64,000 bases of DNA. Source: Chitinophagaceae bacterium (GTDB lineage Bacteria > Bacteroidota > Bacteroidia > Chitinophagales > Chitinophagaceae). The position numbers and the translations under genes are program-made. Below are positions 29,009 through 36,693 of the stretch, one piece after another; position 1 is the first letter of the stretch, and each line of letters starts with the position of its first letter. A model generated the notes under the pieces. The model was not told the origin of the DNA and made no database searches. It was given only the letters and a program-made list of their open reading frames with translations. The stretch is taken from contig JAHBTL010000021.1 of NCBI GenBank assembly GCA_019638615.1, positions 1-64,000 of the forward strand, given 5' to 3'.

Positions 29009-32000
29009 ATGAAACGGACTAAACAAATAGAAAACAGGTTGAGCATCTACACAGTGCTGTTAAAAGTATTTGTGTGGATCGTTGGCCCAATGTTTTTTGC
29101 TTCCACTTTAAACGGGCAAAATATTGTTCGTCCGAATATCGAGGGACCGGCAGGCTTGCAGGTCAACACTTTTACCGGTAGTCTTTTTTATCAGCGTACA
29201 GATATGTTCATTCCCGGAAGGGGATTATCCATTGATCTTTCCTTTTCCTATAACAGTGCTGATCGGGCATTTGATCTTGGGTTCGGCTATGGATGGACAT
29301 GTTCTTATCATCAGTTTTATATCAAAGACAGCGCTACCGGCAGCATACGCTTATACAGGGAAGACGGGCGAAAAGACCTGTATGAAAAGAAAGGAGCGGC
29401 GTTTATACCGCCTGTTGGAATCTTTGACCAATTAACGGAATATGAAACCGGCAAATACCGCTACCGTACAAAAAGCGGCACGCAATATTTTTTCGAAAAT
29501 CCTGCACACCAGAAACTCACCCGCATTCGTGACAGGAATGGTAATGAAATAATTTTATCATATAGCGGAAATGCCCTTAACTCAATTGCCGACGCATCGG
29601 GTCGCAGTGTTGAATTGGTATGGAATGGCAACCGGTTGCAGGAACTGAGAGCGACGCTCGGCAATGAAACGAGAAGTGTTAAATATACCTACACCTCTAA
29701 CGGTTGTTTGGCAAGCGTACGTAATCCGGAAAATGGGCTGATCAATTATACCTACAATGCGAACCGGATGATGCAGAGCCTGATGACGCCTAACAGGTTC
29801 CTGATCAATATTACCTATGACAAAAACACAGCGGTAGAAAAGCTGGTGTCGTGCCGGAAAGAGCAAAGGATCATGTATGAAGGGTCCAACCTGAAGACAT
29901 ACCTTATTGAGCGCGGGGAAAACAAGAATACAACCACTACCTATTCATTTGATGAGAAGGGCAGGCTGATCCAGCGGGCAGGCAATTGTTGCGGTTTTAA
30001 AAACGCCTACACGTATGATGAGTACAACAATATTGCTTCGATCACCGATGCCAACGGAAGACAAACGAAATACACCTACGATAAAACAGGCAATCTCGTT
30101 TCGGAAACGAATGCACTCAACCAAACGGCAGTATACCGGTATGAGCCTGTTTTTAACCAGGTAACCGAATATATTGACAAAGCCGGGAACAGAACCTTCT
30201 ATGAGTACGATGAAAGGGGTAACCTGGTTAAGATCACACATCCGTTGAATATCGTCGAAACTTTTGAATACGATCAGTACGGCAATAAAATAAAAGCAAA
30301 AAACGGGCGCGGCTTCATCACAACCTATGGATATGACAGTTACGGATATCTGCAGAAAATAACGAATGCCCTGGGCTTTTCCGACAGCTATCTGTATGAT
30401 GCGTGGGGCAACCTGCGCGAGCAAACCGATGCCAGGAATAATAAAACTGCTTATACCTACACAAAGCTGAACCAGCTGAAAGATGAGACAGACGCCACAG
30501 GTGCAAAAACAAGCCTGGAGTATGATGGCAACGGCAATGTGAAGCTGGAGCGGGATGCAAAAGGCAATGCTACACAATACGTATACGATGAGAACGATAA
30601 CCCGGTTATTGTAAGAGACGCTCTCGGCAAAAGCACCATTAATCAATACGATCCCTTTGGCAATCTTGTTTCCAGCATTGATGCCACCGGCGCTGAAACA
30701 AAGTACACCTACGACAACCTGAACCGCCTTATTACAAAGGTGAACCCGGAGGGAGAACGTACGCAATATGCCTATGACGCCAATGGCAACAGGATCGCGG
30801 TCAACTATCCCAACGGCAATACGGTCAACATTCAATACGATGTACTGAACCGGGTTGTACAGACGAGTGATCAGTATGGTTTGATAGCCGCTTATGAATA
30901 CGATGCCAGCGGCAATAAGAAATCGGAACGGAACGGGAACGGGCATATCATTACCTATCGCTATGACGCGCTCAACAGGTTGCTCTCTGTTACCGACCCC
31001 GCCGGCAACGCGGTATTTTATGCATACGATGCCAACGATAACCTGCTCACGGAAACCGACCACAATAACCGCGTTACCCAATATGTATACGATGAAGATG
31101 ACCGGCAAATCCAGGTAAAAGACGCGCTCAATCATATATCCCACTCAGCTTACGACCGGGCGGGCAATCTTGAATCCGTTAAAGATGCCAATGGAAATAC
31201 GACACAGTATACCTATGATGCGGTAAACCGGAAAACTGCAGAACGCTTTGCCGATAACAGCACCCGCAGTTATGAATATGATAAGAACAGCAATCTTGTT
31301 AAGCGTACAGATGCCAAAGGACAGGCGACGGAGTATATCTACGATGAGCGGGATCGGCTGAATACAAGACGCTATCCCGGTAGTACCGAAAATTTCGATT
31401 ATGATGATGCAGACAGGATGATCCTTGCAAGAAACCCCAATGCCGAGGTCACATTCAGGTATGATAAAGTGGGACGCATTATTTCCGAAACGCTGAACGG
31501 GAAGGTTACGGCATATCAATACAGCATTCAACAGAATACCAAAACCATTGTCTATCCCGGCGGGCGCGTTATTAAAAGAGAGCTGGATGGCCGCAACCGC
31601 ATCCGCAATATAAGAGATGCGCAAAAGCTGCTGGCGGAATTCAGTTACGATAACGGCGGAAAACTGACCAACAGACGATATGCTAATAATACCTCATCCG
31701 GTTATACGTACAACAGCACGGGCACACTGGCAACTGTTGCGCACCAGCCCGGATCCTTTGTAAACCTTGCCTACAGTTACGACAAAGCCGGCAATCCTTT
31801 GCAGGTTCAATTTGCCCATCGTTCGTTCACGGAGCAATATACGTATGATGCTTTGCACCAGGTAACGGGTTACCAGCAAGGGTCAAACAATGCAACCTAT
31901 ACTTACGACGCTGTAGGCAATCGCAGTGCTGCGCAAATAAATGCTGTTTCTTACGGCTATCAGGTAAATGCTATGAATGCCTATAGCAGCATTACCGGCA

Positions 32001-33298
32001 CTAATTCCGTTGAGCCGGTCTATGACGCGAATGGCAATACGGCCAACGATGGCCGGTTTACCTACGGGTATGACCCCGAAAACCGGATGACTGCCGTAAA
32101 CAACGGTTCCGTACTGGCGAATGTGTATGATGCATTAGGCAGGCGGATACAGCGAAGAACCGCAACGGACACTGTTTTTTATTATTACGACGGGCAACAG
32201 GTAATAGAAGAACGCAACAGCGTTGATGCCGTATTGGCAACCTACGCATGGGGTGGATGGATAGACGATGCCGTGAACATGCAGCGAAACGGGCAGGATT
32301 ATTTTTATCATGCCAACCACCTCGGCTCCATTGCCGCGATTACCAATCAAAGCGGATCAGTTACCGAACGTTATGAATATGATGTTTACGGAAAGATAAA
32401 AGTATACGATGCGAATTACAACCTGTTGGCTCGCTCAGCTATAGGCAACAGCTATACGTATACCGGCAGGCAATACGAATGGGAGACCGGCTTCTATTTT
32501 TACCGCGCCAGGACCTATGATCCCGAACATGGCCGGTTTATGCAACGCGATCCGTTGGGCTATGTGGACGGGTTGGGGTTATATACTTACGTAAATAACG
32601 CGGCAACGGTGATGGCTGATCCTATGGGGATGGAGGGTGTTGACTTATGTAAATGGTGGAACAAGGCTTCGGATTTTATTGGAGGTTTTGGAGAAGGAGT
32701 AAAGGATGGCTTTTTTGAAACTATTGATTTCATCCTAAACGACGTATGGAGACCTCAGTTCTGGAAGGACGTTTATGCAGGACTTAGCTCTCTGACCCCA
32801 GAAGGTGTAGAAGCTGCCATCACTAATGCAATTAGAAATATTCCGAACCTTACGGCAAGAGATTGGGGATATATCTTGGGAAAGGGGGGATTTGATCTTT
32901 TGCTCGGATCTAAAGGCGTAAAAACTGCTGTACAAGGTTCAGTAAGAGGATTAAAATATTTTAAAGGCGCTCAAGAGATTAGTAAAGCCGCTAAGGGTGG
33001 AAGTTTTGCAGAAAGAGTATTTTTAAGCGAAAAATTTGGGATCACATCTGAAAGATTTGCGAATAGTATTACTGGTGTAAAAGGCACTTGGAATAATCAA
33101 GGTGGTTTATTCAAAATGGGATGGTCTACCCAAAGTAAATATGGTGGGGGCATGCAATTAAGAATTGGCTTTGGTAGCAAAGTTGGGAATCCCAATCAAG
33201 CATGGCGACATATATATGTTCCTAAAACATTTGTTCCGAATAGTTTTGCTAATCCATCAATCCAAGTAAAGCGATCGTTATTTAAACTGGGACAATAA
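29009..33298 (+). CDS. Rhs-repeat polymorphic toxin
   Basis: 1429 residues with its own signal-like N-terminus (to about residue 37). Dense YD repeats (Y-D-x-x-G-N and variants) run from about residue 150 to 1150. The Rhs core-associated motif ends the shell (R-A-R-T-Y-D-P-E-H-G-R-F, R-D-P-L-G-Y near 1160-1180, and D-P-M-G-M at about 1204). Residues 1205-1429 are the variable C-terminal toxin region: a helical linker rich in Gly and Lys, then an unrecognised domain with G-L-F-K-M-G-W-S-T, R-I-G-F-G and W-R-H-I-Y-V-P-K-T-F. Family knowledge: the shell encloses a toxin released into competing cells. The toxin region is visibly more A/T-rich than the shell. The immunity gene follows after 2 bases. 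Confidence 0.9.
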   Translation: MKRTKQIENRLSIYTVLLKVFVWIVGPMFFASTLNGQNIVRPNIEGPAGLQVNTFTGSLFYQRTDMFIPGRGLSIDLSFSYNSADRAFDLGFGYGWTCSYHQFYIKDSATGSIRLYREDGRKDLYEKKGAAFIPPVGIFDQLTEYETGKYRYRTKSGTQYFFENPAHQKLTRIRDRNGNEIILSYSGNALNSIADASGRSVELVWNGNRLQELRATLGNETRSVKYTYTSNGCLASVRNPENGLINYTYNANRMMQSLMTPNRFLINITYDKNTAVEKLVSCRKEQRIMYEGSNLKTYLIERGENKNTTTTYSFDEKGRLIQRAGNCCGFKNAYTYDEYNNIASITDANGRQTKYTYDKTGNLVSETNALNQTAVYRYEPVFNQVTEYIDKAGNRTFYEYDERGNLVKITHPLNIVETFEYDQYGNKIKAKNGRGFITTYGYDSYGYLQKITNALGFSDSYLYDAWGNLREQTDARNNKTAYTYTKLNQLKDETDATGAKTSLEYDGNGNVKLERDAKGNATQYVYDENDNPVIVRDALGKSTINQYDPFGNLVSSIDATGAETKYTYDNLNRLITKVNPEGERTQYAYDANGNRIAVNYPNGNTVNIQYDVLNRVVQTSDQYGLIAAYEYDASGNKKSERNGNGHIITYRYDALNRLLSVTDPAGNAVFYAYDANDNLLTETDHNNRVTQYVYDEDDRQIQVKDALNHISHSAYDRAGNLESVKDANGNTTQYTYDAVNRKTAERFADNSTRSYEYDKNSNLVKRTDAKGQATEYIYDERDRLNTRRYPGSTENFDYDDADRMILARNPNAEVTFRYDKVGRIISETLNGKVTAYQYSIQQNTKTIVYPGGRVIKRELDGRNRIRNIRDAQKLLAEFSYDNGGKLTNRRYANNTSSGYTYNSTGTLATVAHQPGSFVNLAYSYDKAGNPLQVQFAHRSFTEQYTYDALHQVTGYQQGSNNATYTYDAVGNRSAAQINAVSYGYQVNAMNAYSSITGTNSVEPVYDANGNTANDGRFTYGYDPENRMTAVNNGSVLANVYDALGRRIQRRTATDTVFYYYDGQQVIEERNSVDAVLATYAWGGWIDDAVNMQRNGQDYFYHANHLGSIAAITNQSGSVTERYEYDVYGKIKVYDANYNLLARSAIGNSYTYTGRQYEWETGFYFYRARTYDPEHGRFMQRDPLGYVDGLGLYTYVNNAATVMADPMGMEGVDLCKWWNKASDFIGGFGEGVKDGFFETIDFILNDVWRPQFWKDVYAGLSSLTPEGVEAAITNAIRNIPNLTARDWGYILGKGGFDLLLGSKGVKTAVQGSVRGLKYFKGAQEISKAAKGGSFAERVFLSEKFGITSERFANSITGVKGTWNNQGGLFKMGWSTQSKYGGGMQLRIGFGSKVGNPNQAWRHIYVPKTFVPNSFANPSIQVKRSLFKLGQ

Positions 33299-33300
33299 TC

Positions 33301-33750
33301 ATGAAGTATTCAGATAAGATAATACATATGGTTGATTATATCAATTCATTGTTGAAGAAATACAACGAGACGCCAATTTTTAATAACAAAAACTTCATAG
33401 TCGATGGAATGGGTTGGGAAGAGTATTTAAAAATTACTTTTAAAAAAACAGATTCAATAAGCTTTGAAATAATCTTCTCTTCAAATGACTTTCAAATAAA
33501 TATCGACAGAGCCCATGAAGCAGTAGATTTAAGTTACAGCGATTTCAATGATAATAAATTAATAATAAAAGATTTTTTTGAAATTTTATTTACTTGCGGT
33601 GTTAAGGTAAAGTATTGTGGTTCAAATTATACCAAAATATATTTTTTTGATAGTAGTGAGAACTGCGTTAAAACTTTAAAATATGTAACAGGTTTGTATT
33701 TAAAAGTAAGCTGTCAAACAAAAAAGTACCAACCGATATATGCTAAGTGA
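33301..33750 (+). CDS. Candidate immunity protein for the Rhs toxin
   Basis: 149 residues, small and cytosolic, with no signal peptide. It starts 2 bases after the Rhs stop on the same strand and is strongly A/T-rich, like most polymorphic-toxin immunity genes. The sequence (an N-terminal helix, then strands with S-F-E-I-I-F-S and I-K-D-F-F-E-I-L-F) matches no immunity family I can name. The role is inferred from position alone. Confidence 0.7.
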   Translation: MKYSDKIIHMVDYINSLLKKYNETPIFNNKNFIVDGMGWEEYLKITFKKTDSISFEIIFSSNDFQINIDRAHEAVDLSYSDFNDNKLIIKDFFEILFTCGVKVKYCGSNYTKIYFFDSSENCVKTLKYVTGLYLKVSCQTKKYQPIYAK

Positions 33751-35880: not shown

Positions 35881-36047
35881 GAATATTTGGTTGGGTGCAT
35901 TTCAAATTTTCGCGCTATACAAATTTTCCGGTCGGTGAGACCTGCCCGACTACGTCATTCAGGCGGGCATCGACCGGTAGTGAGTCCTACAGGCGGGTAT
36001 CACCACCCGCCTGCGAAAATTTGAAATGCGCCCCGGAATATTTGGTT
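35881..36047. mobile_element. Small inverted-repeat element with target-site duplication (family A)
   Basis: The termini GGGTGCATTTCAAATTTTCG (from 35893) and CGAAAATTTGAAATGCGCCC (to about 36033) are near-perfect inverted repeats enclosing about 100 bases of GC-rich hairpins. The 12-base word GAATATTTGGTT occurs immediately on both sides (35881..35892 and 36036..36047), as expected for a target-site duplication. There is no coding capacity, so it is a MITE-like unit moved by a transposase elsewhere. The right duplication contains the TTTG box of the tRNA-operon promoter. Confidence 0.75.
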
Positions 36048-36071
36048 TGTATTTTATTTTTTCTATCTTTG
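36041..36071 (+). promoter_or_regulatory. Promoter of the leader-tRNA operon
   Basis: TTTG (36041..36044), a 19-base spacer and TATCTTTG (36064..36071) match the Bacteroidota consensus with the same spacing as the tRNA-Ser promoter. Start of transcription is expected four to seven bases after the -7 box, at about 36075..36078, which coincides with the ATG of the leader frame. Confidence 0.75.
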
Positions 36072-36075
36072 CATT

Positions 36076-36150
36076 ATGAATTTAGTACTCCATATACAAC
36101 GACCACTGCAACCCGGATCAGGGCTGTGTGAGCGTTTGTGTATATACTAA
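36076..36150 (+). CDS. Leader peptide of the tRNA operon (24 residues)
   Basis: ATG 36076 to TAA 36148..36150. Codons 5-13 read Leu-His-Ile-Gln-Arg-Pro-Leu-Gln-Pro, and eight of these nine codons begin with C: CTC at 36088, CAT at 36091, CAA at 36097 and 36109, CGA at 36100, CCA at 36103, CTG at 36106 and CCC at 36112. Every tRNA of the operon downstream reads at least one of them. The frame overlaps the arms of a possible hairpin (36109..36114 with 36121..36126) and ends before the antiterminator and terminator. This is the layout of an amino-acid-biosynthesis leader peptide, here before tRNA genes. The predicted transcript starts at or next to the ATG, so translation may be leaderless. Translation is not proven. 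Confidence 0.65.
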   Translation: MNLVLHIQRPLQPGSGLCERLCIY

Positions 36151-36180
36151 AGCGTTATATTCAAAACTTATTACAGCCCT
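36109..36180 (+). promoter_or_regulatory. Attenuator: sequestering hairpin and antiterminator
   Basis: Segment AGGGCTGT (36120..36127) pairs perfectly with ACAGCCCT (36173..36180), 8 bp. That second arm includes the first four bases of the terminator stem (36177..36180), so the two structures exclude each other. Segment 36109..36114 can instead pair with 36121..36126 (five of six pairs), hiding the antiterminator arm. A ribosome stalled on the C-first codons at 36091..36114 would cover the hiding arm and free the antiterminator. Folding is by eye. Confidence 0.65.
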
Positions 36181-36202
36181 CGCAGCAATGCGGGGGTTTT
36201 TT
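36177..36202 (+). terminator. Rho-independent terminator between leader and tRNA genes
   Basis: Stem CCCTCGCA (36177..36184) with TGCGGGGG (36189..36196), 8 bp with one G-U pair, loop GCAA, then six T (36197..36202). It lies only 5 bases before the first tRNA and between the promoter and all five tRNA genes, so it would have to be bypassed for tRNA synthesis. Confidence 0.8.
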
Positions 36203-36206
36203 ATTT

Positions 36207-36282
36207 CGGGTAATGGAGGAGCCAGGTCGTCCTCGCTTGCCCTGGAAGCAGGAGTTCCCGGGTTCGAATCCTGGTTACCCGA
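36207..36282 (+). tRNA. tRNA-Pro (anticodon TGG)
   Basis: A full cloverleaf: acceptor CGGGTAA/TTACCCG with discriminator A, D-stem GAGG/CCTC, anticodon stem CTTGC/GCAGG, loop CCTGGAA, T-arm CCGGG-TTCGAAT-CCTGG. Two oddities: position 33 is C instead of the near-universal T, and position 37 is A where bacterial tRNA-Pro normally has G (the TrmD m1G37 site). It reads CCN codons. No CCA is encoded. Confidence 0.8.
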
Positions 36283-36287
36283 CCTAT

Positions 36288-36359
36288 TGCCACTTGGTAT
36301 ACCGGTTAGTACGGCTGTCTTTGACACAGCAGGAATAAGTTCGATTCTTTTAGTGGCAA
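36288..36359 (+). tRNA. tRNA-Gln (anticodon TTG)
   Basis: Acceptor TGCCACT/AGTGGCA with discriminator A, D-stem GTAT/GTAC, anticodon stem GCTGT/ACAGC, loop CTTTGAC. The T-stem ATAAG/CTTTT has one mismatch. 72 nt. It starts 5 bases after tRNA-Pro and reads CAA and CAG. Confidence 0.8.
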
Positions 36360-36361
36360 CC

Positions 36362-36435
36362 GGTGGTCTTAGCTTAACCGGAAGAGCGCAGCATTGTGAC
36401 TGCTGTATGTACGGGTTCGATCCCCGTAGATCACC
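36362..36435 (+). tRNA. tRNA-His (anticodon GTG)
   Basis: The extra G(-1) at 36362 faces C73, the histidine identity pair. Acceptor GTGGTCT/AGATCAC, D-stem GCTT/GAGC, anticodon stem CAGCA/TGCTG, loop TTGTGAC, T-arm ACGGG-TTCGATC-CCCGT. It starts 2 bases after tRNA-Gln and reads CAT and CAC. Confidence 0.88.
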
Positions 36436-36441
36436 CTGCAA

Positions 36442-36523
36442 GCCGATGTGATGGAACCGGGAGACATACTGGTCTTAGAAACCAGGGCCAAAAGCATTGC
36501 AGGTTCGATCCCTGCCATCGGCA
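36442..36523 (+). tRNA. tRNA-Leu (anticodon TAG)
   Basis: A class II tRNA: acceptor GCCGATG/CATCGGC with discriminator A, D-stem ATG/CAT, anticodon stem CTGGT/ACCAG, loop CTTAGAA, a variable arm of about 13 bases, T-arm GCAGG-TTCGATC-CCTGC. Position 37 is A, whereas bacterial tRNA-Leu(TAG) normally has G37. It reads CTN codons. Confidence 0.88.
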
Positions 36524-36528
36524 CATTT

Positions 36529-36600
36529 TCCTCATTAGCTCAATGGATAGAGCATGTGGCTACGAACCACAGGATACTTGTTCGATTCAGGTATGGGGAA
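36529..36600 (+). tRNA. tRNA-Arg (anticodon ACG)
   Basis: Acceptor TCCTCAT/ATGGGGA with discriminator A, D-stem GCTC/GAGC, anticodon stem TGTGG/CCACA, loop CTACGAA, T-arm ACTTG-TTCGATT-CAGGT. A34 would be deaminated to inosine by TadA and read CGT, CGC and CGA. No terminator is evident between here and the monooxygenase gene at 36694. Confidence 0.85.
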
Positions 36601-36693
36601 CATATCCTGGCGCCGGAAAGAATAAAAAAATTGTTGCGGCAAATAAAAAATGGATAATAATAATTGGCTACTTTTCGGCAAGAAAGAAGAGGT

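Follow-up and report, generated by a model that had tools for sequence, protein, structure and literature searches.

The window analysed here is a stretch of 64,000 nucleotides, positions 1 to 64,000 of the forward strand of contig JAHBTL010000021.1 in the assembly GCA_019638615.1 of a Chitinophagaceae bacterium. On its plus strand, a promoter, a short reading frame, an intrinsic terminator and five tRNA genes follow one another. The Bacteroidota-type promoter was read in the sequence at 36046..36071, with a -33-type box TTTG at 36046-36049 and a -7-type box TATCTTTG at 36064-36071; behind this call is the motif TAnnTTTG, which we take to be the Bacteroidota consensus. The leader frame (36076..36150) starts with ATG and has 24 codons, encoding MNLVLHIQRPLQPGSGLCERLCIY before a TAA stop. 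Since the TAnnTTTG box ends at 36071, transcription would start at or next to the ATG, and translation of the leader would therefore be leaderless or nearly so, with the ATG at about +1. Inside the frame lies an arm AGGGCTGT (36120..36127), complementary over 8 bp to ACAGCCCT at 36173..36180, as sequence and masked folds both indicate. This partner overlaps the 5' arm of the intrinsic terminator (36175..36202), which has a 10-bp stem, a GCAA loop and a T run. Its core reads CCCTCGCA-GCAA-TGCGGGGG at 36177-36196, followed by TTTTTT at 36197-36202. The terminator stands between the promoter and the first tRNA gene and ends 4 bases 5' of it. A terminator scan over 1.5 kb also recovered it, as one of 2 terminators found against 1.7 expected.

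The five tRNA genes (36207-36601, all on the plus strand) are tRNA-Pro(tgg) at 36207..36284, tRNA-Gln(ttg) at 36288..36361, tRNA-His(gtg) at 36363..36436, tRNA-Leu(tag) at 36442..36524 and tRNA-Arg(acg) at 36529..36601. All of them exceed the Rfam gathering score and fold. The same five anticodons are also served by separate genes in the 7.18-Mb genome, so the tRNAs of the array are accessory; their identities to the separate copies are 65%, 60%, 68%, 65% and 67%, in the order given. The tRNA-Pro has an unusual C33, a C replacing the T before the anticodon. Promoter boxes, frame, complementary arms, terminator and the five tRNA genes are thus all present where a preliminary description of this DNA had placed them. 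A T-box was considered as the controlling element and rejected: the Rfam search of the window returned the tRNAs alone, with no T-box or other riboswitch above the gathering score. DNA searches with the whole five-tRNA cluster gave no match beyond its own genome in 58 relatives or in 394 family genomes, and no relative among plasmids. The search of phage DNA gave one match of 87 nt: positions 36198-36284, the tRNA-Pro region, are 76% identical to a stretch of Erythrobacter phage vB_EliS-L02 where no feature is annotated. No repair enzyme was found among the ten neighbouring proteins tested.

Two further observations concern the DNA upstream. A 21-nt inverted repeat (35893-36033, 95% complementary, 99 nt apart) ends just 5' of the promoter and resembles a small mobile element or repeat. 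An RHS-repeat protein (29009-33750; PF05593, DUF6531), whose C-terminal tail has no assignment, is followed by a 149-aa ORF with no Pfam match; the two, located about 2.3 kb 5' of the leader, are possibly a polymorphic toxin and its immunity gene.

We then quantified the codon content of the leader. Codons 5-13 (36088..36114, plus strand), proposed as the codons by which the leader senses its own tRNAs, read CTC CAT ATA CAA CGA CCA CTG CAA CCC, and eight of the nine begin with C. Codons of this kind make up 17.8% of the 15,124 codons in the 23 long ORFs of the window, close to the fifth that had been assumed beforehand, and none of the 14,940 nine-codon stretches of these ORFs reached eight of nine. 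Because this run was chosen after the fact, the figures for the whole frame after the start are the fairer ones: 10 of 23 codons are C-first (binomial p 0.0038; 85 of 14,618 ORF stretches as high), and 12 of 23 residues are P, Q, H, L or R (p 0.002; 33 of 14,618 stretches). The earlier assignment of leader codons to these tRNAs is to be corrected in two places: tRNA-Leu(TAG) need not read CTC, and tRNA-Pro(TGG) need not read CCC.

The pairing between the in-frame arm and its partner was stronger than in dinucleotide shuffles (p 0.004 and 0.007). The minimum-energy fold of 36076-36206 (-40.7 kcal/mol, z -3.9, none of 200 shuffles as low) consists of the terminator and a long leader hairpin at 36081..36151, a protector that holds the antiterminator arm in the state without a ribosome. 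We modelled ribosomes as masks over the 5' part of the leader. As long as the 3' half of the terminator was missing, the arm and ACAGCCCT formed an extended helix under each of the masks to 36100, 36105, 36110, 36115 and 36120. Once the terminator was complete, all 10 of its 10 pairs formed in the absence of a ribosome or under a mask to 36128, and masks to 36105, 36110 and 36115 left it with 4 of 10. The terminator persisted at equilibrium under the mask to 36100, equivalent to a stall on codon 5 (CTC); in the predicted folds, antiterminator and terminator are thus mutually exclusive under three of the four masks. Loss of the terminator in any of the four masked states occurred in 9 of 500 leader shuffles; we use this figure because a stricter test, in which all four masks must abolish the terminator, was passed by none of 500 shuffles and failed by the native leader as well. 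If the footprint of a ribosome extends about 12 nt past the first base of the codon in its A site, the masks to 36105-36115 place the ribosome at about codons 6 to 10 (CAT, ATA, CAA, CGA, CCA). The last C-first codons lie so close to the arm that a ribosome stalled on them would hide part of it, and Leu would be poorly sensed. Folding thus predicts a switch with three states: terminator when untranslated, antiterminator with a ribosome at about codons 6 to 10, and terminator again with a ribosome near the end of the frame.

These features make it probable that 36041-36202 is a ribosome-mediated transcription attenuator, which turns on the five-tRNA array when a ribosome stalls for the tRNAs encoded there. 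When charged tRNAs are sufficient, the ribosome would reach the stop codon and cover the arm, and the terminator would end transcription before the first tRNA. With the ribosome stalled at about codons 6 to 10, the leader hairpin would be disrupted; the arm could then pair with the 5' half of the terminator, and the tRNAs of the array would be made. If the leader is not translated, leader hairpin and terminator would both form, and the default would therefore be off. The stress in question is probably the destruction or depletion of tRNA, since comparable leaders stand ahead of arrays of spare tRNAs, RtcB, an Rnl-type ligase, Ro60/TROVE and other genes. Such leaders, many with nearly every amino acid, occur in Chitinophagaceae and in some other Bacteroidota. 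The type of signal (nuclease damage, starvation or antibiotics) we infer from this gene content.

To describe the family, the exact pattern of arm and terminator was located in 44 of 294 sampled Chitinophagaceae genomes, and a reversed control gave 0. The matches in two of the 44 genomes (G084 and G169) were dyad repeats and were dropped. From the other 42 genomes we read 46 loci: 44 pattern loci, a second array in the genome of the window (contig C45) and one Taibaiella locus. An ATG frame is present in 44 of the 46, so the start codon is conserved among the relatives. It begins 61-72 nt before the arm (27 at 67 nt; among several in-frame ATGs we took whichever was closest to this distance) and stops 21-30 nt after the start of the arm, which places the arm in the last third of a leader of about 30 codons. 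L423 has no ATG in frame and has a GTG at 64 nt before the arm, L425 is incomplete in the sequence read, and L426 and L430 end shortly after the leader. Promoter-like boxes precede 43 of 44 related leaders under a loose pattern. At least one tRNA, and up to 18, lie downstream in 33 of the 46 loci; the 13 loci without tRNAs comprise 10 with RtcB, 2 cut by a contig end and L441 with neither. Within 7 kb of the 46 loci, we counted RtcB in 25, an AAA ATPase in 23, an RNase H-like protein in 22, SPFH/Band 7 in 14, an unnamed 265-aa family in 10, a DinB-like protein in 9, TROVE/Ro60 (presumably the type of rsr in the Salmonella repair operon) in 3 and Rnl ligase in 2. These counts come from BLAST with one reference per family, the references being identified by Pfam and 'DinB-like' being our own label. 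Judged from this gene content, the family loci are tRNA-supply and RNA-repair operons. The 265-aa family (length of the reference) has no Pfam match and lies downstream of, for example, L074 (+3571), L427 (+1176) and L450 (+1798); it is a candidate for a new RNA-repair component.

The second array of the same genome (L039) also has a promoter-like upstream region. Its leader of 31 codons (L039 4532-4627), MQRTMLVHIKSISWFSPEVGYTVCGAYNAVD, contains all twenty amino acids, its arm is GCGGGGC, and its terminator is GCCCCGC..GCGGGG with a T run. The tRNAs stand around an RNA ligase gene (PF09414). RtcB is encoded on the same contig at G000:C45:131-1210, more than 40 kb from the array, and none of the listed R1 matches lies near this gene.

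We also considered the RNA ligase as a marker of the system and discarded it: at least three tRNAs accompany it in 14 of 80 ligase loci, five of eight ligase loci retrieved from the family have no tRNAs, and the ligase occurs in 2 of the 46 leader loci. A class-wide search found the ligase in 9 of 395 genomes. The same ligase family occurs on the viral contigs L194, L210, L226 and L233 with 14-21 tRNAs within 13-17 kb, and at least four tRNAs are present in 15 of 80 viral ligase loci. A viral pattern scan comprised 120 stretches. The 80 phage ligase loci gave two weak matches (E 0.37 and 0.69) to R1, a model built on 33 family leaders; both were rejected, as we take them to be the tail of a longer coding frame. 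In many of the array-bearing ligase loci, the first attenuator is followed by a second frame and terminator (L096 8548-8759, L097 9512-9727, L100 9742-9953 and others). Some of these second frames hold 19-20 kinds of amino acid. Their in-frame pairing was not below p 0.05 in any of ten, no better than in shuffles, and the p for kinds was 0.03-0.26 in five; we therefore claim no mechanism for them. R1 also matched weakly in other families and within the window's own genome (E 0.0016 or worse); 13 of these matches were examined, and most lack a comparable leader. L495, from another family of the order, has a weak match and a 29-codon frame with 16 kinds of amino acid before a terminator, and is possibly a further leader outside Chitinophagaceae.

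The RNA evidence across the family is uneven. Alignment A2 contains 33 leaders of 43 prepared; left out were L421, the divergent L427, L445, L450 and L453, and six near-duplicates. A 5-bp hairpin of the AGTCC/GGACT type, located in the frame before the arm and named after inspection of the alignment, shows two-sided changes at all 5 of its 5 pairs, which 23 of 500 shuffles match, and 13 cells with such changes, which none of 500 matches. Nor did any of 500 shuffles attain its covariation score of 0.286, and slid versions did not exceed 0.112; pairing is absent in 25% of its cells. The consensus that RNAalifold itself drew from the family leaders is the terminator alone. Arm and terminator change together between lineages, with GCAGGGC opposite GCCCTGC in L481, GCGGGGTT opposite AACCCCGC in L485, GGGCTTT opposite AAAGCCC in L112 (Emticicia), and AGGGCTGT opposite ACAGCCCT in the window. 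Among 21 loci not chosen by the arm pattern, the in-frame antiterminator reached p<0.05 in 10, with differing arms across lineages and an alternative terminator, and it was not below p 0.05 in the other 11 (L144, L152, L153, L122 and others). The combined Fisher p without the window was 1.5e-11 for these loci, and it was 0.0024 for the six loci not titled Chitinophagaceae (three merely 'Bacteroidetes' or 'Bacteroidia'), two of which pair in frame; both values overstate the evidence, since the loci are kin and 10 of the 21 were found by R1, which holds the arm consensus, so that R1-found loci are not fully independent of the arm. The attenuator inferred in the preliminary description is thereby supported at the level of the family, by the ATG frame, the in-frame antiterminator with its alternative terminator, the covarying hairpin and folding, together with codons matched to the tRNAs (below).

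By architecture, the window is largely a member of this family, with an in-frame arm, a stop 28 nt after the start of the arm (21-30 in the family), a terminator and five accessory tRNAs. The distance from start to arm is 44 nt, versus 61-72 nt in the family. In the 64-kb window, R1 gave a single match up to E 10; it falls on the window leader and starts on the ATG at 36076, with E 0.17. In the genome, 150 of 2,902 R1 candidates were scored, and the ten matches listed do not include the window leader. Given these two results, homology between this leader and those of the family is unproven. We class the array as a compact, C-box form of the family layout that would work in the same manner, common descent being likewise unproven.

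Next, we compared the amino-acid composition of the leaders with that of ordinary proteins, for which 157 mechanical ORFs of at least 300 codons served as the null. The 44 family leaders contain on average 17.95 kinds of amino acid, compared with 14.6 in stretches of equal length from the ORFs of the loci. For 22 representatives sharing less than 50% identity, the values were 17.77 and 14.60 (sd 0.33), and the highest of 5,000 simulations was 15.77. Nineteen or twenty kinds occur in 14 of the 44 leaders (0.18 expected), and all twenty in 5 (0.006 expected). Emticicia leaders have 19 kinds in 31 codons, with R1 matches at E 0.55 and 0.79. Leaders of ligase loci without tRNAs in or near Chitinophaga (L117, L141, L150, L165) have 15-17 kinds and show no one-of-each composition. 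Such composition is absent from the window leader too, with 14 kinds in 24 codons (p 0.42).

A leader of this kind could also respond to slow translation in general, caused by antibiotics, ribosome trouble or a shortage of any amino acid; the tRNAs would then be one stress output, and their match to the leader incidental. Many related leaders do hold nearly all amino acids, several precede RtcB or an RNA ligase without tRNAs, and inhibitors of translation switch on the trn operon in Anabaena (PMC10272220). What speaks against such a general sensor is the match between leaders and their own tRNAs. We examined 54 leaders, 9 from ligase loci, of which 42 have tRNAs; L098 (a duplicate of L075) and L112, L113, L116 and L159 (no leader assigned) were left out. 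For the 42 clusters with tRNAs, the share of leader residues carried by the cluster's own tRNAs, compared with the leaders of other clusters, exceeded all 20,000 and all 50,000 permutations (z 6.2). None of 50,000 permutations reached it without the window either (n=41), nor with representatives of less than 50% identity and no window (n=20, z 4.4), which bears out at family level the codon match first seen at this locus. When representatives were drawn at random 20 times for each of four thresholds, p rose to 0.0015 at worst. Restricted to the pattern-selected Chitinophagaceae, the test had the observed value reached in 1 of 50,000 permutations (n=32), and in 35 of 50,000 for 14 representatives. 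For each of the 21 clusters with one to six kinds of tRNA, its leader was ranked among all 54. The C-box-rich window leader, with a content of 0.52 against a mean of 0.24, ranked 1 of 54; L122 (array Arg-Cys-Arg) and L443 were also first and L451 and L420 second for their tRNAs, several others were middling (L074 22, L440 23), and L449 was low (rank 44). We therefore regard a purely general sensor as unlikely.

A still less probable explanation is that the array is a phage-like remnant, its terminator belonging to an upstream transcript and its tRNAs being silent or made by low, constant read-through. The divergence of the tRNAs from the separate genome copies (60-68% identity), the resemblance of the tRNA-Pro region to a phage stretch, and the lack of the five-tRNA cluster in any relative (58 and 394 genomes) would fit a remnant. 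Promoter-like boxes directly ahead of the unit, the rarity among shuffles of terminator loss under a mask (9/500), the folding of all five tRNAs and the recurrence of comparable units across genera would not. An untranslated switch, namely a leader that binds a protein or tRNA and contains the frame by coincidence, would account for the stable fold (z -3.9) but is very improbable, as family leaders keep the ATG, the stop and the frame around the arm with an equalised amino-acid composition, and a search of the window gave neither a T-box nor any other Rfam riboswitch at or above its gathering score.

Returning to the attenuator, we lean towards a broader reading, held with somewhat less confidence than that of the window itself: Bacteroidota may possess a response to tRNA damage that works without a protein sensor. 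Leader peptides would let the ribosome report missing tRNAs, general leaders through nearly all amino acids and special ones through the codons of their own array, and would switch on replacement tRNAs together with RtcB, Rnl and Ro60; the window would hold a specialised form that covers the C row of the codon table in full. Leader-peptide attenuation, textbook knowledge for amino-acid operons, appears here to guard tRNA itself, in a self-matched feedback between tRNA supply and tRNA genes that appears to be coupled to RNA repair in relatives. This could account for the control of RNA-repair operons in these Bacteroidota and give accessory tRNA arrays a use, and it would predict that resistance to toxins that cleave tRNA, and to phage-defence nucleases, can be induced. 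As short putative sensors of translation, the leaders with all twenty amino acids lend themselves to testing.

The preliminary description knew of no leader-peptide attenuator before tRNA genes, and among the titles and abstract starts listed in our literature searches we likewise met none ahead of tRNA genes or rtcB. Burroughs and Aravind (2016) reportedly survey RNA-repair systems broadly and may include descriptions of such operons. In a T-box, uncharged tRNA binds directly to the RNA, and no leader peptide is involved; the leader described here would resemble T-boxes in that a cis-acting RNA senses the state of tRNA and controls termination, and would differ by its leader peptide. In trp/his-type attenuators, a short leader frame carries regulatory codons, and protector, antiterminator and terminator compete such that a stall means on. 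In enterobacteria, these attenuators control amino-acid biosynthesis and sense one or few amino acids. The unit described here shares with them the leader frame with proposed regulatory codons, the competing hairpins and the predicted on state upon stalling; its output, in contrast, would be tRNAs (with RNA repair in relatives), and its arm lies inside the frame. An entry to the literature on trp/his-type ribosome-mediated attenuation is PMC1183508.

Among tRNA operons, the dense accessory arrays known as tRNA array units of bacteria and phages (PMC5966550, PMC6409571) and the arrays with which jumbo phages provide tRNAs together with RNA ligases (PMC7824862) are similar in gene content, but the parts of these descriptions consulted mention no attenuator. 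The Anabaena trn operon of 26 tRNAs, normally silent and induced by translational stress, is placed with rtcB under the repressor TrcR (PMC10272220). Like the family loci, it joins accessory tRNAs and rtcB in one regulon; unlike in the model for the window, control lies with a DNA-binding repressor, and 'attenuat' and 'leader peptide' have no occurrence in that text (PMC10272220). In Salmonella, the rsr-yrlBA-rtcBA RNA repair operon is switched on by tRNA damage under RtcR, a CARF-domain activator that binds tRNA fragments (PMC7790460). This is likewise an RtcB operon answering tRNA damage, and it differs from the model proposed for the window, in which the translating ribosome would take the place of a protein sensor.
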